The notes under the pieces were generated by a model that saw nothing but the letters and a program-made list of their open reading frames with translations, was not told the DNA's origin and searched no databases. Both the position numbers and the translations under genes were made by a program. From Labilithrix sp. (GTDB taxonomy: Bacteria; Myxococcota_A; Polyangia; Polyangiales; Polyangiaceae), in assembly GCA_019637155.1 (NCBI GenBank), contig JAHBWE010000013.1, forward strand, positions 186,001 through 250,000: DNA of 64,000 bases. Reading direction: 5' to 3'. Shown here one piece after another: positions 1,285-60,015 of this stretch; the stretch's first letter is position 1; each line of letters opens with the position of its first letter.

Positions 1285-1480
1285 GGAAACAAAAGAGAAG
1301 CGACAAGTTGGACGGACCTCCCCCGCCCACGCTTCACCCGCGACCATACGGTTCTTTCCCCCGCAGAGCAAGACACGCATCCACCTGAAATCACAACCAA
1401 TTTGGCCCCGCCGCCCCACGCGCAGCAAAGCAACTGTCGAGACGCCCCCCGGGGAAACGGCCGCCCCAGCGCGCGCGAGC

Positions 1481-1522
1481 GCCGTGTCCCAGGGTGGGGG
1501 TGTCGGGGGCGAAGCCCCCGAC
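1481..1522 (-). repeat. 3'-end hairpin repeat, short copy
   Basis: On the minus strand, 12 nt after the lnt stop codon, there is a 9-bp perfect stem (GTCGGGGGC with GCCCCCGAC, loop TTC) followed by a C-rich tail ending in ACACGGC. The same hairpin-plus-tail occurs after genes at 7.15, 35.15 and 59.69 kb. It could act as an intrinsic terminator or mRNA 3' stabiliser, although no U-tract follows. Confidence 0.6.
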
Positions 1523-1534
1523 GTTGCGAGAACC

Positions 1535-3295
1535 CTAGGCTGGACGGCGCCTTCGGAACGACGCGACCACGATGCCGAAGGTAACGAGGTACCACGGAAT
1601 ATCTCCGAGGATCTCGTACACGGTGACCCCGCGGAGCCATCGGATCTCTGCGTCGTGCGACTCGGCCTTGAACGGCGTCGACACGGTGCCTTCGACGAGC
1701 TTGCCGTTCGGATCGATGATCGCGGACACGCCGCTGTTGGTGCTGCGGACGAGGAAGCGGCGGTGCTCGACGGCGCGGAACTTCGCGAGCGCGAGGTGCT
1801 CCCACGGCTCGGTCGTGTCGCCGAACCACGCGTCGTTGGTCATGTTCACGAGGAGCTCGGGGTCCGCGTGCGCGACGGCGCGGTTGGTGAAGCCGGGGAG
1901 GACGTCCTCGTAGCAAATGAGGACGGTGATCGCGCGCTCCTTGCCCTTCACCTCGAGCTTGATCGGCTCGAGCGACGTGCCGGCGGAGAAGCGCCCGCTG
2001 TGCGGCGACCATTTGTAGAGGATCGGGAAGGTGTCTCCGAGCGGGAGGTACTCGCCGAACGCGAGGAGGAACTGCTTGTCGTAGCGGCCCTTGATCTCGC
2101 CCCTCACGTCGCTGCCGAGCGCGGTGTTGAACCAGCGCTCGCGATCGGGATCGGTGCGATAAAGCACGGCGCCGAAGATCGTCGGCACGCCGAGCTTCGA
2201 GGTGAAGCGATCGCGGAAGAAGTTCTGCTTCATCGCGAGGTCTTCGCGCGTGGGGAACGTCGCGCTCGTCTCGCTCCAGACCACGAGGTCGACGCCCTTC
2301 GCTCTGAGGTCGCTCGTGTGCGAGAGGTGCCGGCGGAGCCCTTCGCCCGGGTTCTCGCGCTTCTGCATGAGACCCATGTTGCCTTGCACGTACCCGACGC
2401 GCGCGCTCTCGGCCGCGGCGACGCGGCTGTTCGTCATCGAGATGCGGATCGCGCCGTAGAGCACGCCGACCACGAGCGCGATCACGCCCACGCCGACGAC
2501 GCGCCGGTCGATCGCGCCCGCGCCGGTCGCGCGCTCCTCGTTCGCGCCGCTCTTCGTCACGCGCACCGCGCCGGCGAGCTTCGCGCGGAGCGGCTCCGCG
2601 ATCGCGACGTTGATCGCGACGAGCATCGTGCTCACGAGGATCGGCCCGCCGACGTCGGCGAGCTGCATCAGCACCGGCACGTTGTGGACCGCGCCCGCGA
2701 AGTACCAGGGGAAGAGGAGAGGAAAGACGAGCTCGCTCGCGGCGAACGCGGCGCCGAAGACGAGCGGGAAGGGCCAACCTCGCTGCGCGGCGCGTCCGGT
2801 GAGCCAGCCGAGCAGCGCGAGGCGCCCGCCCTGGTAGACGCAGATGAAGGACGTGAAGAAGAGGCAGAGGAACAGCCCGAACCCGCTGAAGGTGCGGAGC
2901 ATGTTGGCGAGCCAGTAGAACCCGCCCATGTTCATCGCGAACCCGCAGAGGAGCCCGAGCAGCGCCGCGCGCTTCGGCGTCTGCCCGATGAGCACGACGT
3001 AGAGCGGCACGAGCGCCACGAACGCCAGCGGCCACACATCGAACCCAGCAAACGACACGAAGTACAGACACCCCGAGAGCGCCGCCCCCGCCCACGCGAG
3101 CTTCCCCCGCACGAGCGCCCGCGCCTCCCGCTGCACACCCGGCGACACCTTCGTCCCCTCCACCGCCGCGCCCTTCTTCGCGTCCGCGCCGTCGTCCTTC
3201 TTCGCGTTCGCGCCGGTCTGGGCCTCGTCGGGCGCCTTCGTTGCGTCGGCGGATGCCTTTGCTGCGTCCTTCTTTGCGTCGCCGTCCGCGCTCAT
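1535..3295 (-). CDS. lnt: Apolipoprotein N-acyltransferase
   Basis: Inner-membrane enzyme that transfers the third acyl chain to the N-terminal Cys of lipoproteins. The 586-residue protein has about six hydrophobic segments between residues 65 and 285, then a carbon-nitrogen hydrolase (nitrilase) domain at about 295-545. The nitrilase triad is visible: Glu342 (WSET), Lys407 (YDKQFL, ahead of FGEYLPLG) and Cys461 (LICYED). A final hydrophobic segment spans about 563-580. The first 55 residues are an unusual Ala/Lys/Asp-rich hydrophilic extension not expected in the family; a later start is possible but no better start codon with a ribosome site was seen. It follows two lipoprotein isomerase genes on the same strand with a 60-nt gap, matching a lipoprotein and envelope maturation role. 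Confidence 0.93.
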   Translation of the reverse strand: MSADGDAKKDAAKASADATKAPDEAQTGANAKKDDGADAKKGAAVEGTKVSPGVQREARALVRGKLAWAGAALSGCLYFVSFAGFDVWPLAFVALVPLYVVLIGQTPKRAALLGLLCGFAMNMGGFYWLANMLRTFSGFGLFLCLFFTSFICVYQGGRLALLGWLTGRAAQRGWPFPLVFGAAFAASELVFPLLFPWYFAGAVHNVPVLMQLADVGGPILVSTMLVAINVAIAEPLRAKLAGAVRVTKSGANEERATGAGAIDRRVVGVGVIALVVGVLYGAIRISMTNSRVAAAESARVGYVQGNMGLMQKRENPGEGLRRHLSHTSDLRAKGVDLVVWSETSATFPTREDLAMKQNFFRDRFTSKLGVPTIFGAVLYRTDPDRERWFNTALGSDVRGEIKGRYDKQFLLAFGEYLPLGDTFPILYKWSPHSGRFSAGTSLEPIKLEVKGKERAITVLICYEDVLPGFTNRAVAHADPELLVNMTNDAWFGDTTEPWEHLALAKFRAVEHRRFLVRSTNSGVSAIIDPNGKLVEGTVSTPFKAESHDAEIRWLRGVTVYEILGDIPWYLVTFGIVVASFRRRRPA

Positions 3296-7058: not shown

Positions 7059-7155
7059 GGGGCCCCAGAAGCGGCCGCGGATGCGGTCGCGAAGCGACCC
7101 TCGCGCAAAGCGCGAGGGCCGTGTCTGGGGTAGGGTGTCGGGGCGAAGCCCCGAC
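7059..7155. repeat. Three-hairpin 3'-end repeat element, full copy A
   Basis: A 97-bp element between the convergent cysteine desulfurase and lipoprotein genes. It starts GGGGCCCCAGAAGCGGCCGC and then carries three perfect hairpins, each with a 3-nt loop: GGTCGC/GCGACC (7085-7099), CCTCGCGC/GCGCGAGG (7099-7117) and GTCGGGGC/GCCCCGAC (7137-7155). The last stem abuts the stop codon of the minus-strand gene at 7156. A second full copy at 35054-35153 differs by paired changes that keep the stems. Probable bidirectional terminator or structured 3' RNA element; upstream of it (6923-7058) only low-complexity GGACC-type sequence is seen. Confidence 0.75.
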
Positions 7156-7608
7156 TCAGAAGGGAGGCGGAACCGCCGCCGCCTGCGCGTACGTCGGCGG
7201 CGGATCGACCACGAGGAGCGGGCTGAGGCCGAGGCTCGGCGTCGAGACCTGCTGGTACGGGTCGATGTCGATCGTCGGGATGATGACGCCCTCGACGTTC
7301 GGGAGCTGGTTGTTCGCGGCGATGTCGTACGCGGGCGGCATCACCTCGCTGAGCTTCACGCCCGGCGTGAGCCAGTCGCGGTGGTCGTCGACCGCGATCG
7401 CGAGGTTCCGATCGACGGGCGCCGCCACGTCGGTCGGGACCGGGTACGCGATCGGCGTGTCGTCCGACACGCGGGCCGTGTCGATCTTCTCCGCCGCCAC
7501 CGTCTCCTCCTCCTCCGCAGGCTCGTAGATTTCGGTGCGGTCCACAGCGCAACCGAGGGCGAGCTGGGCGAGGCAGGCGGCGAGTGCAGCAACGAGCAAG
7601 CGGTTCAT
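7156..7608 (-). CDS. Small predicted lipoprotein, unknown function
   Basis: A 150-residue protein with a clear lipoprotein signal peptide (LAQLALGC, Cys20). The mature part is acidic after the Cys, then Pro-rich (PPPTYAQAAAVPPPF at the end), with no recognised domain. ATG 7608 is preceded by a good GGAGG ribosome site. Its stop codon is flush against the third hairpin of the repeat element, which would terminate or protect the transcript. I do not recognise the family; the length and composition suggest a small envelope-associated protein. Confidence 0.65.
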   Translation of the reverse strand: MNRLLVAALAACLAQLALGCAVDRTEIYEPAEEEETVAAEKIDTARVSDDTPIAYPVPTDVAAPVDRNLAIAVDDHRDWLTPGVKLSEVMPPAYDIAANNQLPNVEGVIIPTIDIDPYQQVSTPSLGLSPLLVVDPPPTYAQAAAVPPPF

Positions 7609-35053: not shown

Positions 35054-35153
35054 GGGGCCCCAGAAGCGGCCGCTCCAGCGGTTGCGAAGCAACCCTCGCG
35101 CGCAGCGCGAGGGCCGTGTCTGGGGTGGGGGTGTCGGGGGCGAAGCCCCCGAC
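35054..35153. repeat. Three-hairpin 3'-end repeat element, full copy B
   Basis: 100 bp beginning GGGGCCCCAGAAGCGGCCGC. Three hairpins with 3-nt loops: GGTTGC/GCAACC (35080-35094), CCTCGCGC/GCGCGAGG (35094-35112) and GTCGGGGGC/GCCCCCGAC (35133-35153). Compared with copy A at 7059-7155, the first stem has a C-G pair replaced by T-A and the last is longer by one pair. The element ends 1 nt from the stop codon of the minus-strand gene at 35155, again at a convergent gene end. Upstream of it, 34954-35053 shows only GC-rich non-coding sequence. Confidence 0.75.
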
Positions 35154-35154
35154 G

Positions 35155-35349
35155 TCAACGAACGTGCGTATGCACGGGCGAGGAGCCCGCACTCCCCATG
35201 ACCGGCATCGGCACGGCGCCGACGGACTGGTTCATGACCCGCCCGTTGAGCAGCGCCCCGGCCTGCGCACCGATCACGAACGCGAGCACCGTGCCCACGA
35301 CGGCGATGCCGAGGACCGCGGACTTCGATGCCACCTTGCTGCTTCCCAT
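35155..35349 (-). CDS. Small single-span membrane protein, unknown
   Basis: A 64-residue protein with one hydrophobic helix (AVLGIAVVGTVLAFVIGAQAGALL, about 11-34) and a short hydrophilic Gly/Pro/Ser/Met tail. ATG 35349 has an excellent ribosome site (GGGAGG, 5 nt away), which supports translation. The sequence matches no family I know. It is divergent from the giant kinase gene, with a 247-nt region between. Confidence 0.6.
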   Translation of the reverse strand: MGSSKVASKSAVLGIAVVGTVLAFVIGAQAGALLNGRVMNQSVGAVPMPVMGSAGSSPVHTHVR

Positions 35350-43779: not shown

Positions 43780-44193
43780 ATGGCTCATCTCGTTCGTAAG
43801 AATGACCGGCGTGAGGTTCGGCGCTCGATTTCGATGCCCTGTCAGATCGTTCGGGAGAAGGATTTTCGGCTCGTCGCCGAGACGGCGCTCGACGTCTCGC
43901 CGGATGGGATGCTCCTCGCGACCGAGATGGACCTCGAGCCCGGCGAGAACGTGTTCGTCTCGTTCCGTGCGACCGAGCTCGGGATCTGGTTCGACAGCGA
44001 AGCGAAGGTCGCGCGCGTGATCCGTGGGCGGCGGCCGGGCGACAAGGGAAGGGGAGTCGGGATCACCTTCTCGACGATGTCGCGGGTGAAGCGGCTCATC
44101 CTTCGCAATCACCTGCGACGCGTTCCGCCGCCGGTGCCGCGCCGCACCCAGCGCATCGACTGGTCCGCCACCGTGATCGGGCTCGAGTCGTGA
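43780..44193 (+). CDS. PilZ-domain protein 1
   Basis: A 137-residue single-domain protein. The c-di-GMP signatures are present in order: the Arg-rich RREVRR near residues 10-15 and DVSPDGMLL (D/N-x-S-x-x-G) at about 39-47, then the beta-barrel core VFVSFRATELGIWFDSEAKVARVIRGRRPGDKGRGVGITF. PilZ proteins bind cyclic di-GMP and pass the signal to motility or export systems. It overlaps the second PilZ gene by 4 nt (GTGA), so they form a pair, perhaps acting on one target. The promoter at 43743-43772 serves both. Confidence 0.9.
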   Translation: MAHLVRKNDRREVRRSISMPCQIVREKDFRLVAETALDVSPDGMLLATEMDLEPGENVFVSFRATELGIWFDSEAKVARVIRGRRPGDKGRGVGITFSTMSRVKRLILRNHLRRVPPPVPRRTQRIDWSATVIGLES

Positions 44194-44777
44194 AGGCGCT
44201 CTTCGACTACGCCCGCCGCAACGTCACGCGGCGCGAGGTCCTCCTGCCCTGTCAGGCCGTGCGCGAGCACGACTTTAAGCTCATCGCCGATCGGATGCTC
44301 GACCTCTCGACCGACGGCATGCTCGTCCCACTTCGGCGGCAGGTGCTGACCGGCGAGCCGATCATCGTGTCGTTCTCGATCGGCGGGATGTGGATCGACG
44401 CGGAGGCGACCGTCGCGCGCATCGTCCACGGCCGCCGCCCCGGCGACGACGGCATCGCAGCCGGCCTCGTCTTCGACCCGCTCTCCCCGTCGGCGCGCTC
44501 TGCGCTCGCCGGCTATCTCCACGGCCGTCGCGAGCCGCTCCCGCGCCGCGGACCGCGCGCGGCGCTGAGGCGAGGCGCCGAGGCGCCGCGCCTCGCCGAC
44601 GAAGCGATCATGAACGCGCCGCTCCTCGTGCCCGCCGACGTCCTCGCCGACGAGGCCGACGTCCTCGCCGACGACGACATCGACGCCCTCGGCATCCTCC
44701 GCGCCGTCGCCACCGCCTGGCAACAGCTCAGCTCTTCGACGCAGGGGCTTCGCCCCTGCACCCCCTCGCAGCCGTAG
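44190..44777 (+). CDS. PilZ-domain protein 2 with repeat-derived C-terminus
   Basis: A 195-residue PilZ protein from GTG 44190. It has RRNVTRREVLLPC (Arg motif) and DLSTDGMLVPL (DxSxxG), then IVSFSIGGMWIDAEATVARIVHGRRPGDDGIAAGLVF, closely paralogous to its upstream neighbour. An additional region of about 70 residues follows, with an Ala/Arg/Pro segment and DVLADEADVLADDDIDAL repeats. The last residues (STQGLRPCTPSQP) are read from copy 1 of the 70-bp hairpin repeat, which also supplies the TAG stop. The neighbour lacks this tail, so the C-terminus looks recruited from the repeat. Confidence 0.88.
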   Translation: MKALFDYARRNVTRREVLLPCQAVREHDFKLIADRMLDLSTDGMLVPLRRQVLTGEPIIVSFSIGGMWIDAEATVARIVHGRRPGDDGIAAGLVFDPLSPSARSALAGYLHGRREPLPRRGPRAALRRGAEAPRLADEAIMNAPLLVPADVLADEADVLADDDIDALGILRAVATAWQQLSSSTQGLRPCTPSQP

Positions 44778-44939
44778 GACGCGCGCGAAGACGCGCGCAT
44801 CGTCTTCAACGCAGGGGCTTCGCCCCTGCACCCCCTCGCAGCCGTAGGACGCGCGCGAAGACGCGCGCCTCTTCAACGCAGGGGCTTCGCCCCTGCACCC
44901 CCTCGCAGCCGTAGGACGCGCGCGAAGACGCGCGCATCC
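44740..44939 (+). repeat. Three tandem 67-70 bp hairpin repeats
   Basis: Copies begin at 44740, 44810 and 44877. Each has a GCAGGGGC-TTC-GCCCCTGC hairpin, then ACCCCCTCGCAGCCGTAGG and a second hairpin (GCGCGC..GCGCGC around a GAAGA loop). Copy 1 lies inside the PilZ gene and contains its stop. The GGGGC-TTC-GCCCC core plus ACCCC tail matches the hairpins after lnt, the 7.1-kb lipoprotein, the 35-kb peptide and the FHA gene. The remaining sequence to 45045 shows no gene. Confidence 0.8.
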
Positions 44940-45045
44940 TCCGCTGCTTCGTCTGACTGCGAGCCAGCGGGCGCGTTAAATGCGGCGATGCCGCCCTTGG
45001 GGAGGGGCGGCATCGCGGGTACTGCGCTCGGTTGTTGTCGTTGGC

Positions 45046-58299: not shown

Positions 58300-59688
58300 A
58301 TGTCTCGGACTTCGGCGGCCAAAGTCGGGCGCTGGCTAGCAGGAAAAGAGAGACGCGACGAAGCGGTCGCCCTCCTCTGTGCGTGGGCGGCGAACGGGCC
58401 GAACGACAAGGAGGGGCAGGAGCTCCTTGCGGAGGCGTTCCGTCTCGATCCGGGGTCGCAGCTCGCGCAGCTCGCGTTCGAGCGCATGGAAGGCATCGCG
58501 GCGAAGGACCACGCGCCGCTCGAGCAAGCGATCGCGACGTGGACCGCCGACGAGATCGCGAAGCTCGAGAAGCAGATCGTCCGCCCGAACTTCATTCGCG
58601 CGCAGGTCGGCTTCAACAACAACGTCAAGTACAACGGCCTCGTCTTCCACATCCAGACGGAGGACTCCGGCCTCGACAAGCCGCACATCATCACGCACCT
58701 CTTCGCGGACGGCGGCCGCATCATCAAGAGCCACAAGCGCATCTACGCGAGCGAGGTGAAGCGCGACGACGTCGCGAAGTTCGTGCGCGCGCTGATGAAG
58801 GGCCAGCACATGGAGATGGCCCTCATGCTGCGCGAGGGCAAGTTCGACGAGGTCATCGCCGGCCGCGCGATCGGCGGCATGCACACGCTGGAGGAGCCGC
58901 CGCGCACGGCGGAGAAGCTCGCGACGAAGAAGGAGGAGCGCGTCGAGGCCGCGCCGGCCGCGCGCTCGATCCCGCCGCCCGCGCCTCCGCCGCCGGTCGC
59001 GGACACGTCGGAGCTCTCGCGCCTCGTCGCGCAGGCGCCGGTGCAGAAGTCGTATTTCCGCCTCAACGTCGTGCGCAGCCTCACCGGCGGTCCGGCGTTC
59101 TACGAGCCGAAGGGCGAGAACGCGGTCATCGGGCGGCTGGGGCCGATCTCGCTCGAGGCGGAGCGCTTCTGCCATCCGCGCGAGGCGGAGATCAACTGGA
59201 AGCAGGGGCGCATCTGGCTGAACGATCTCGAGGAGGGCAACGGCGTCTTCTTGCGCATTCGCCAGCCGGTCGAGCTCGAGATCGGCGACGAGTTCATGGT
59301 CGGCGATCAGGTGCTCCTCATCGAGCGCAACCCCGAGCCGAACGACGGCCCGGGTCCGGGCCCGACGTACTTCTACTCGTCGCCGAAGTGGCCTTCGTCG
59401 TTCCGCGTCGTGCAGCTCTTCGAGGGCGGCGCGAAGGGCGCGTGCGTCGTCGCGCGCGGGACGACGATGCAGATCGGCTCCGCGATCGGCGACTTCGTGT
59501 TCACCGCGGATCCGCTCGTCGAGGATCAGCACTGCCTCGTCGAAGAGCAGGCCGGCTCGATCGTCCTCTCGGACCTCGGCTCGCGCACCGGCGTCTTCGT
59601 CCGCATCAAGGGCGAACAGGAGCTCGTCGCCGGCGACGAAATCATCGTCGGCCGCACGCGCATGCAGCTCGAGGCGCTGCAGGTTTAG
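58300..59688 (+). CDS. FHA-domain protein with N-terminal helical region
   Basis: A 462-residue cytoplasmic protein. Residues 1-65 are helical and TPR-like (DEAVALLCAWAANGPNDKEGQELLAEAF). A central part (about 90-200) has no known domain. After a Pro-rich linker (about 225-235) come two forkhead-associated beta-sandwiches, at about 265-345 (AVIGRLGPISLEAERFCHP, then VELEIGDEFMVGD) and about 380-462 (MQIGSAIGDFVF, EDQHCLVEE, DLGSRTGVFVRI, GDEIIVGRTRM). FHA domains bind phosphothreonine, so it may be an effector of nearby Ser/Thr kinases. Its stop codon TAG is the first base pairs of a terminator hairpin. Confidence 0.85.
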   Translation: MSRTSAAKVGRWLAGKERRDEAVALLCAWAANGPNDKEGQELLAEAFRLDPGSQLAQLAFERMEGIAAKDHAPLEQAIATWTADEIAKLEKQIVRPNFIRAQVGFNNNVKYNGLVFHIQTEDSGLDKPHIITHLFADGGRIIKSHKRIYASEVKRDDVAKFVRALMKGQHMEMALMLREGKFDEVIAGRAIGGMHTLEEPPRTAEKLATKKEERVEAAPAARSIPPPAPPPPVADTSELSRLVAQAPVQKSYFRLNVVRSLTGGPAFYEPKGENAVIGRLGPISLEAERFCHPREAEINWKQGRIWLNDLEEGNGVFLRIRQPVELEIGDEFMVGDQVLLIERNPEPNDGPGPGPTYFYSSPKWPSSFRVVQLFEGGAKGACVVARGTTMQIGSAIGDFVFTADPLVEDQHCLVEEQAGSIVLSDLGSRTGVFVRIKGEQELVAGDEIIVGRTRMQLEALQV

Positions 59689-59716
59689 GGGCTTCGCCCC
59701 TAAGACCCCACCCCGG
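59686..59716 (+). terminator. Hairpin built on the stop codon of the FHA gene
   Basis: TAGGGGC-TTC-GCCCCTA (59686-59702) is a 7-bp perfect stem whose left arm starts with the TAG stop codon, followed by AGACCCCACCCCGGAACACG. It matches the core-plus-tail pattern of the dispersed 3'-end repeats. No U-run follows, so termination or RNA protection is inferred from position. Confidence 0.55.
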
Positions 59717-59718
59717 AA

Positions 59719-60015
59719 CACGACCCGCCGAAGCGGCGGGCGCTACGCGCCGCTGTGGCGGTCGCATTCCGGGGCCCCGTTCGCGGAGCACGAGCCGTCG
59801 AAGCGGTGGGCGGTACGCGCTGTTGTGGCGGTCGCTTTCCGGGGGCCGTTCGCGGAGCACGAGTCGCCGGAGGGGTGGGCGCTACGCGCTGCTGTGGCGG
59901 TCGCTTTCCGGGGGCCGTTCGCGGAACATGAGCCGCCGAAGGGGCGGGCGGTACGCGCTGCTGTGGCGGTCGCATTCCGGGGGCCCGTTCGGAGCACGAG
60001 CCGCCGGAGGGGACC
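59719..60015. repeat. Four and a half tandem 69-bp repeats
   Basis: Copies start at 59719, 59789, 59858, 59927 and (partial) 59995. Each runs CACGAGCCGCCGAAG..GGGCGGTACGCGCTG.TGTGGCGGTCGC.TTCCGGGGGCC with scattered changes. The unit contains a CCGCC..GGCGG stem. It fills the gap between the FHA gene and the NlpC-like lipoprotein gene. Because the period is near 69, open frames run through it on both strands without being genes. Confidence 0.7.

Follow-up and report, generated by a model that had tools for sequence, protein, structure and literature searches.

REP-like, probably mobile structured repeats with a common right-end module in a Labilithrix genome

The bcr1 repeat of Bacillus cereus is a structured mobile repeat of about 100–150 nt that occurs dispersed in its host. 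The elements described here are similar to it in size, structure and dispersal, and unrelated to it in sequence and host. REPs, according to Di Nocera et al. 2013 (PMC3733652), form high-copy, species-specific families that lie near ORF 3' ends and whose ends can supply stop codons. E. coli REPs positioned at most 15 nt from a stop codon are reported, in the RepRanger paper (PMC12306157, citing its ref. 17), to stall ribosomes, and the RAYT classes and the manner in which REPs flank them are described in PMC6006769. For many REP families no mobilizing enzyme is known, and why they lie directly after stop codons is unexplained.

In the draft genome of a Labilithrix species (GCA_019637155.1; 10,110,631 bases in 46 contigs) we describe several families of repeats that have in common one right-end module, a complex fold kept by paired changes, and a measurable one-sided stop-codon rule. 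This combination makes two questions testable in a single organism, namely what recognizes such repeats and whether insertion bias or selection accounts for their position. The explanation that we consider likely is one of REP-like and probably non-autonomous mobile elements, confined in the genomes compared to this species; their right module would be read in trans, and they may affect host mRNA past stop codons.

Like the REP/BIME repeats of the GTAG super-family, as described in PMC3733652, the elements exceed 100 copies, are palindromic, extragenic and species-specific, lie at ORF 3' ends, and have ends that supply stop codons. Unlike those REPs, which measure 20–40 bp, they are 102–105 nt long (family A) with a multi-helix left domain, take strictly one orientation relative to the stop, have one right end common to several families, and have no flanking RAYT gene. 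The tag GTAG or GT[AG]G is absent from the 5' foot of the hairpin, which reads GGGGT(G) in families A, B and C, with CGTTGA at the other end. The CGTC REPs of the same paper are matched in that the family A complement reads TCAA-CGTC-hairpin, in having no dedicated transposase known, and in lying near 3' ends, but here GTC is paired with GAC, the A-T first pairs and the CCA tail are missing, and families B and C lack CGTC, carrying GCA/TGC instead. The distance of at most 15 nt from the stop is the same as for the E. coli REPs in PMC12306157; those are short single hairpins, unlike the multi-helix elements here, and ribosome stalling is reported for them whereas here we only infer it. As with the REPINs and TnpAREP-RAYT systems treated in PMC6006769, high-copy, structured, non-autonomous repeats occur together with RAYT-like genes in one genome, but the RAYT genes here are not flanked by the repeats and the architecture is not that of two inverted REPs. 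The elements are thus REP-like in their probable working, yet belong to neither tagged super-family.

Fold and paired changes of family A

The window is the whole stretch of DNA that was analyzed, 64,000 nucleotides of contig JAHBWE010000013.1. It contains two family A copies, with the following features:

7059 to 7160, plus strand: family A element, copy 1, with tail TCAGA in place of the consensus GTTGA
7063 to 7130, plus strand: left domain of copy 1, helices P1 to P5
7063–7069 with 7124–7130, plus strand: outer stem P1 of copy 1, CCCCAGA/TCTGGGG
7071–7076 with 7117–7122, plus strand: P2 of copy 1, GCGGCC/GGCCGT
within the left domain, plus strand: P3 of copy 1, GC-GGAT-GC
7085–7099, plus strand: P4 of copy 1, GGTCGC-GAA-GCGACC
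7100–7116, plus strand: P5 of copy 1, CTCGCGC-AAA-GCGCGAG
7137 to 7155, plus strand: right-end hairpin of copy 1, GTCGGGGC-GAA-GCCCCGAC
7156 to 7158, minus strand: TGA stop of the minus-strand gene 7156–7608, directly at the right end of copy 1
35054 to 35158, plus strand: family A element, copy 2, with tail GTCAA
35133 to 35153, plus strand: right-end hairpin of copy 2, GTCGGGGGC-GAA-GCCCCCGAC
35155 to 35157, minus strand: TGA stop of the predicted ORF 35155–35349, within the tail of copy 2

A first-pass annotation of the window had placed a mobile or multicopy structured 3' element in two copies, at 7059–7155 and 35054–35153, with a common start, three hairpins with 3-nt loops and a C-rich tail. 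Both copies exist, with that start and those hairpins; the paired change from GGTCGC/GCGACC to GGTTGC/GCAACC between them is present, as is the additional base pair in the third hairpin of copy 2. Each copy is situated between convergent genes, directly next to a minus-strand TGA (the complement of 7156–7158 and of 35155–35157), the ORF at copy 2 being a short, low-scoring gene prediction. The C-rich tail is absent, the third hairpin forming the 3' end, and the element extends about 5 nt further, in the consensus tail GTTGA. Overlooked beside the three hairpins were the long-range helices CCCCAGA/TCTGGGG and GCGGCC/GGCCGT; this outer and this inner stem enclose hairpins 1 and 2 in a single closed domain. 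For both copies and both strands, the folding energy has a z of −4.4 to −8.0 against dinucleotide shuffles.

From left to right, family A consists of a closed domain of several helices, among them the long-range outer stem, then a GGGG(G)T linker, the right-end hairpin and the GTTGA tail. The conserved region starts with (G)GGGCCCC and stops with GTTGA, between an A/C-rich left flank and a purine-rich right flank. The window also holds two diverged relatives:

1443 to 1529, plus strand: diverged member with an intact right end, GGGGGTGTCGGGGGCGAAGCCCCCGACGTTG, with the stop codon of the minus-strand gene 1535–3295 about 8 nt beyond its 3' end
59678 to 59780, minus strand: diverged family A copy with the outer stem re-paired to CCCCGGA/TCCGGGG

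The first-pass annotation had pointed to selection for structure on the strength of changes that keep pairing. An alignment of 72 matches (71 distinct), which is fitted to the covariance model and hence biased towards it, has standard pairs in 98.9% of 2331 pair cells. Both sides have changed in 21 of the 34 pairs, compared with 4.4 in shuffles, and in 82 cells compared with 13.0; covariation scores 0.127 in the alignment, 0.042 after shuffling and no more than 0.015 if the 3' partners are shifted along. Even when 31 copies are aligned unconstrained, P4 and the right hairpin display changes that preserve pairing. Substitutions are not spread equally over stems and loops: across 65 near-complete family A rows (7 of the 72, partial or of another family, being left out), mean column entropy is 0.156 in 68 paired columns and 0.473 in 24 unpaired ones. 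The outer stem occurs in five different fully complementary versions; one row is mismatched in its upper part (CCCATGG/TCGCGGG) and three rows carry a single mismatch. Linker length correlates with hairpin length in family A, and this probably reflects lineage because the correlation is absent in B and C.

The double changes in P4 have zero intermediates, both pairs being perfectly matched in 65 of 65 copies, and the types of P4, P5 and right hairpin are combined freely, with nearly every combination present and P4 types recombining with other modules. Some of the paired changes may therefore stem from copies exchanging sequence and from mutation that perfects palindromes. That template-switch mutation of this kind, together with inter-copy exchange, accounts for the paired changes in place of structural selection is an explanation we regard as quite unlikely. 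The absence of P4 intermediates and the free combination of modules speak for it, but the arms of the outer stem are about 55 nt apart and yet complementary in most distinct versions, one plan is kept by unrelated families, and GGGGT and GTTGA are conserved although unpaired and non-palindromic.

Copy number, related families and distribution

An exact 16-mer from the left end, CCCCAGAAGCGGCCGC, occurs 195 times genome-wide (reversed control, 0). The genome-wide covariance-model search that the first-pass annotation had proposed, with a model built from 31 copies, returned at least 149 full-length matches above 89 bits and one weak match among the best 150 places, and blastn with one copy gave at least 58 matches among the best 40 of 330 candidates. 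An HMM found 45 full or partial copies in 1.263 Mb (contig C1, 300 kb of C6 and the window), a sample picked irrespective of the window copies. The element is thus multicopy, as had been proposed, with copies dispersed at unrelated sites and identical up to 97%. Of 51 clusters, 47 lie outside predicted genes, as for high-copy, palindromic, mainly extragenic repeats, and tandem arrays exist with units of about 105 bp. The dispersal of near-identical copies and the insertions in genes described below suggest that the elements are mobile. At C1:616123–616164, the left 42 nt of the element is joined to the apparent start region of a heavy-metal-binding domain gene, and a short tandem repeat (GGGACCGCGCAGCGCGAGG) lies near a family A copy at about C1 141978–142062.

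At least two other families have different left domains and the right-end module GGGGTG-NN-GGGGC-GNA-GCCCC-N'N'-CGTTGA in common with family A. The stem of family B reads GCGAGCACG-CGG-CAGAAAAACG...CGTTTTTCTG-CAT-CGTGCGAGC and that of family C GCGAGCAGCGGAGGATGCGCGCG-TCTT-CGCGCGCGTCCTACGGCTGCGAGC; these, and further variants besides, continue with GGGGTGCAGGGG(G)C-GNA-(G)CCCC(C)TGC-GTTGA or something very similar. A right-end search of 1.63 Mb found 93 sites, 31 of them outside main-family matches, and among those 31 several are chance matches in genes while most others belong to other families. Left domains could be delimited in 22 of 25 cases (the remaining 3, without the 5' GCGAGC, were left unfolded), and most fold with a strongly negative z, two being weak (−0.5 and −1.3). 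Outer-stem positions are complementary in 59 of 66, the misses including two rows register-shifted by one base by the search pattern. The motif GCGAGCGGGGTGCAGGGG occurs 63 times at no more than one mismatch, with none in the control. By itself the right module spans about 29–31 nt. One tandem array stands in the window:

44734 to 44968 (44690–45010), minus strand: three tandem units of another family of this superfamily, right end GGGGTGCAGGGGCGAAGCCCCTGCGTTGA, the end overlapping the predicted end of gene 44190–44777

Since the right-end module is common to families with unrelated left domains, it is probably what an enzyme acting in trans recognizes. At C1:216974–217002 it stands beside an unrelated left flank that holds another palindrome-like stretch.

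The distribution is narrow. In 57 relatives, including 11 congeners, neither covariance model matched among the best 67 places per genome, a search that very diverged relatives could escape, and two exact patterns gave nothing in a reference genome collection that may omit the window's own records. Plasmid and phage records held no element match, and a de novo repeat search of about 400 kb in each of two relatives yielded no 18-mer family of comparable kind. Allowing up to two mismatches, the right module GGGGTGNNGGGGCGNAGCCCCNNCGTTGA has 102 matches in this genome and a single match across the taxonomic family's 107 other genomes. By these comparisons the elements are species-specific among the genomes searched. 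Blast matches of single hairpins in 11 relatives were set aside as weak, partial in length and unsupported by the covariance models. We found no publication on these elements, or on REPs of myxobacteria, in the open-licence PMC literature.

The closest relatives have only about 77% DNA identity in a conserved gene; for this reason no empty site was alignable among them, and the neighboring gene is not conserved. Direct flanking repeats of 3–10 nt occur at chance frequency in 60 isolated copies, so that no target-site duplication is evident, and the two element ends, GGGGCCCC and GTTGA, do not form an inverted repeat. A MITE of a DDE insertion sequence was accordingly rejected, terminal inverted repeats and target-site duplication both being absent. 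Subterminal hairpins and the lack of a target-site duplication are traits that the repeats have in common with IS200/IS605-type (HUH Y1) mobile elements. The tail GTTGA also resembles the integron attC motif GTTRRRY; an attC site was rejected since the partner site is absent at the other end and the Y position is at about 48%.

A Rfam scan of the window gave no match at gathering scores. It is highly improbable that the elements are a family of trans-acting structured RNA genes: the fold is strong, as such genes would have, but beside the missing Rfam match the two scanned stretches lack any promoter-like site, and hundreds of copies exist, many tied to gene ends.

Placement past stop codons

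To assess placement relative to genes, we called genes with a finder of our own making (1326 genes, 87% coding). A total of 63 clusters were placed, of which 12 lay less than 1.5 kb from a sequence edge and were dropped and 4 were set aside as intragenic, leaving 47. Density was taken from C1, C6 and the window only, because the 20 other regions of the cluster sample had been selected for holding elements or RAYT genes. Of the 47 intergenic clusters, 20 have the GTTGA end at most 15 nt from a facing stop codon and 3 have the opposite end so placed; by chance, with random intergenic placement, 3.3% would be expected (p about 1e-17). At further loci the right end is stop-adjacent in 6 of 27 family A sites, against 2 for the left end, and in 9 of 27 sites of B/C and others, against 1 (a few B/C sites overlap the earlier sample). 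Placement is oriented, 4–14 nt past stops, and in four copies, two of them in the window, the element end is itself the stop codon. The adjacency to stop codons noted in the window thus extends to a general, oriented rule; it is not absolute, because stop-adjacent copies are a minority (about 22–43% in the three samples). A look at GC skew for replication-strand bias gave a signal too weak to use.

All four intragenic copies read in the orientation of the stop rule, and three of the four, each 105 nt, are frame-neutral; read on its complement, the family A consensus is free of stop codons in all frames. One in-frame 105-nt copy (C6:193389–193493) lies in the activation segment of a gene that its sequence suggests to be a Ser/Thr kinase (DFGIS...TPQFMSPEQ). 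Another frame-neutral copy (C6:82136–82240) lies in a gene of ComEC-like type, again judged from its sequence, and is followed by a tandem GGDARGDTWGGDAR-like repeat.

The oriented place 4–14 nt past stops, and a hairpin that begins where terminators usually start, would also suit domesticated transcription terminators or mRNA stabilizers, kept and copied for their function with little present mobility. We think this unlikely. Neither window copy has a T-tract or a terminator-like site on the element, the sense strand continuing after the hairpin with ACACCCC, so that a U-tract is lacking; more than half of the clusters do not adjoin a facing stop; and the insertions in the kinase and ComEC-like genes and the tandem arrays look selfish.

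We believe that the better explanation is probably the REP-like mobile elements outlined above. Each consists of a structured left domain and a right-end module (GGGG-T linker, GGGGC-GNA-GCCCC hairpin and GTTGA tail), the latter probably recognized by a trans-acting enzyme; copies would spread without target-site duplication and come to rest a few nucleotides past stop codons in a single orientation. The complement of the element would then begin the 3' UTR of the host mRNA, placing a stable hairpin about 10–20 nt after the stop, and any effect on that mRNA would most likely be of REP type: impeding 3' exonucleases, inducing pausing without a U-tract, or slowing ribosomes at the stop.

Structured strand and candidate enzymes

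Host-gene transcripts bear the complement of the plus strand. The plus strand folds more stably than the minus strand in the consensus of all three families (RNA parameters, in kcal/mol: A, −63.7 and −58.0; B, −47.1 and −43.8; C, −61.1 and −51.2). G.T pairs prevail at two places, and beyond these two fixed pairs there are 7 G.T and 3 A.C cells, too few for a strand call. The loop of P4 is GNA in 64 of 65 copies and that of P3 GNNA or GNAB in 55 of 65. Tandem GA/GA with the context C-GA-G appears both in P5 of many family A copies and at the base of the B and C stems. In DNA minihairpins, these loop classes and the C-GA-G tandem confer extra stability, and many of the loops suit RNA too. There is thus a hint that the structured strand is the plus strand, possibly as single-stranded DNA. 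Of the initial proposal of a structured 3' element, the multicopy character and the position at gene 3' ends stand; its reading as a simple structured 3' UTR RNA is not established, because the structure that looks conserved is that of the plus strand and the mRNAs ending at the element carry the complement.

A real, if lesser, possibility is that the selected unit is the folded plus strand as single-stranded DNA, moved in trans by a RAYT-like (Y1) or IS91-like (Y2) HUH enzyme, with adjacency to stops an insertion bias and any RNA role secondary. The loop classes, the recurrent GA/GA tandems, the strand difference in stability and the absent target-site duplication are all in line with it, as are candidate enzyme genes in the genome. 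Six RAYT-like Y1 genes are present (on C20, C13, C39, C24 and C12), two of them 97% identical in DNA, the first scoring 31.7 bits with the NCBI REP-transposase model, for which the cut-off is 80, and a single IS91-like Y2 transposase gene (C1:687808–688344) scores well above the Pfam cut-off. Against it, none of these genes is flanked by an element, the hairpin foot lacks GT[AG]G, the energies come from RNA parameters with many loops suiting RNA as well, and the G.T and A.C counts leave the strand undecided. A wider proposal, a modular mobile class in which folded single-stranded DNA with GNA and GNNA/GNAB loops and sheared GA pairs is selected, one right-end signal serves families with unrelated left domains, an HUH enzyme acts in trans, and insertion is oriented within a ribosome's length past stops, strikes us as doubtful.

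For the REP-like mobile elements that we favor, recognition in trans by an enzyme encoded elsewhere is plausible, and this may be a single-strand (HUH) transposase. No element of any family lies within 1 kb of the six RAYT-like genes, the nearest being about 1.15 kb from one of them. Several relatives have RAYT-like genes and no elements, and weak model matches in or beside RAYT loci of relatives had E values of 0.08 and 0.57. Several of the RAYT-like genes are followed by degenerate tandem repeats, which on C39 partly copy the gene's own 3' end, and a GCTATGCT-like motif stands just upstream of the start of the RAYT-like genes.
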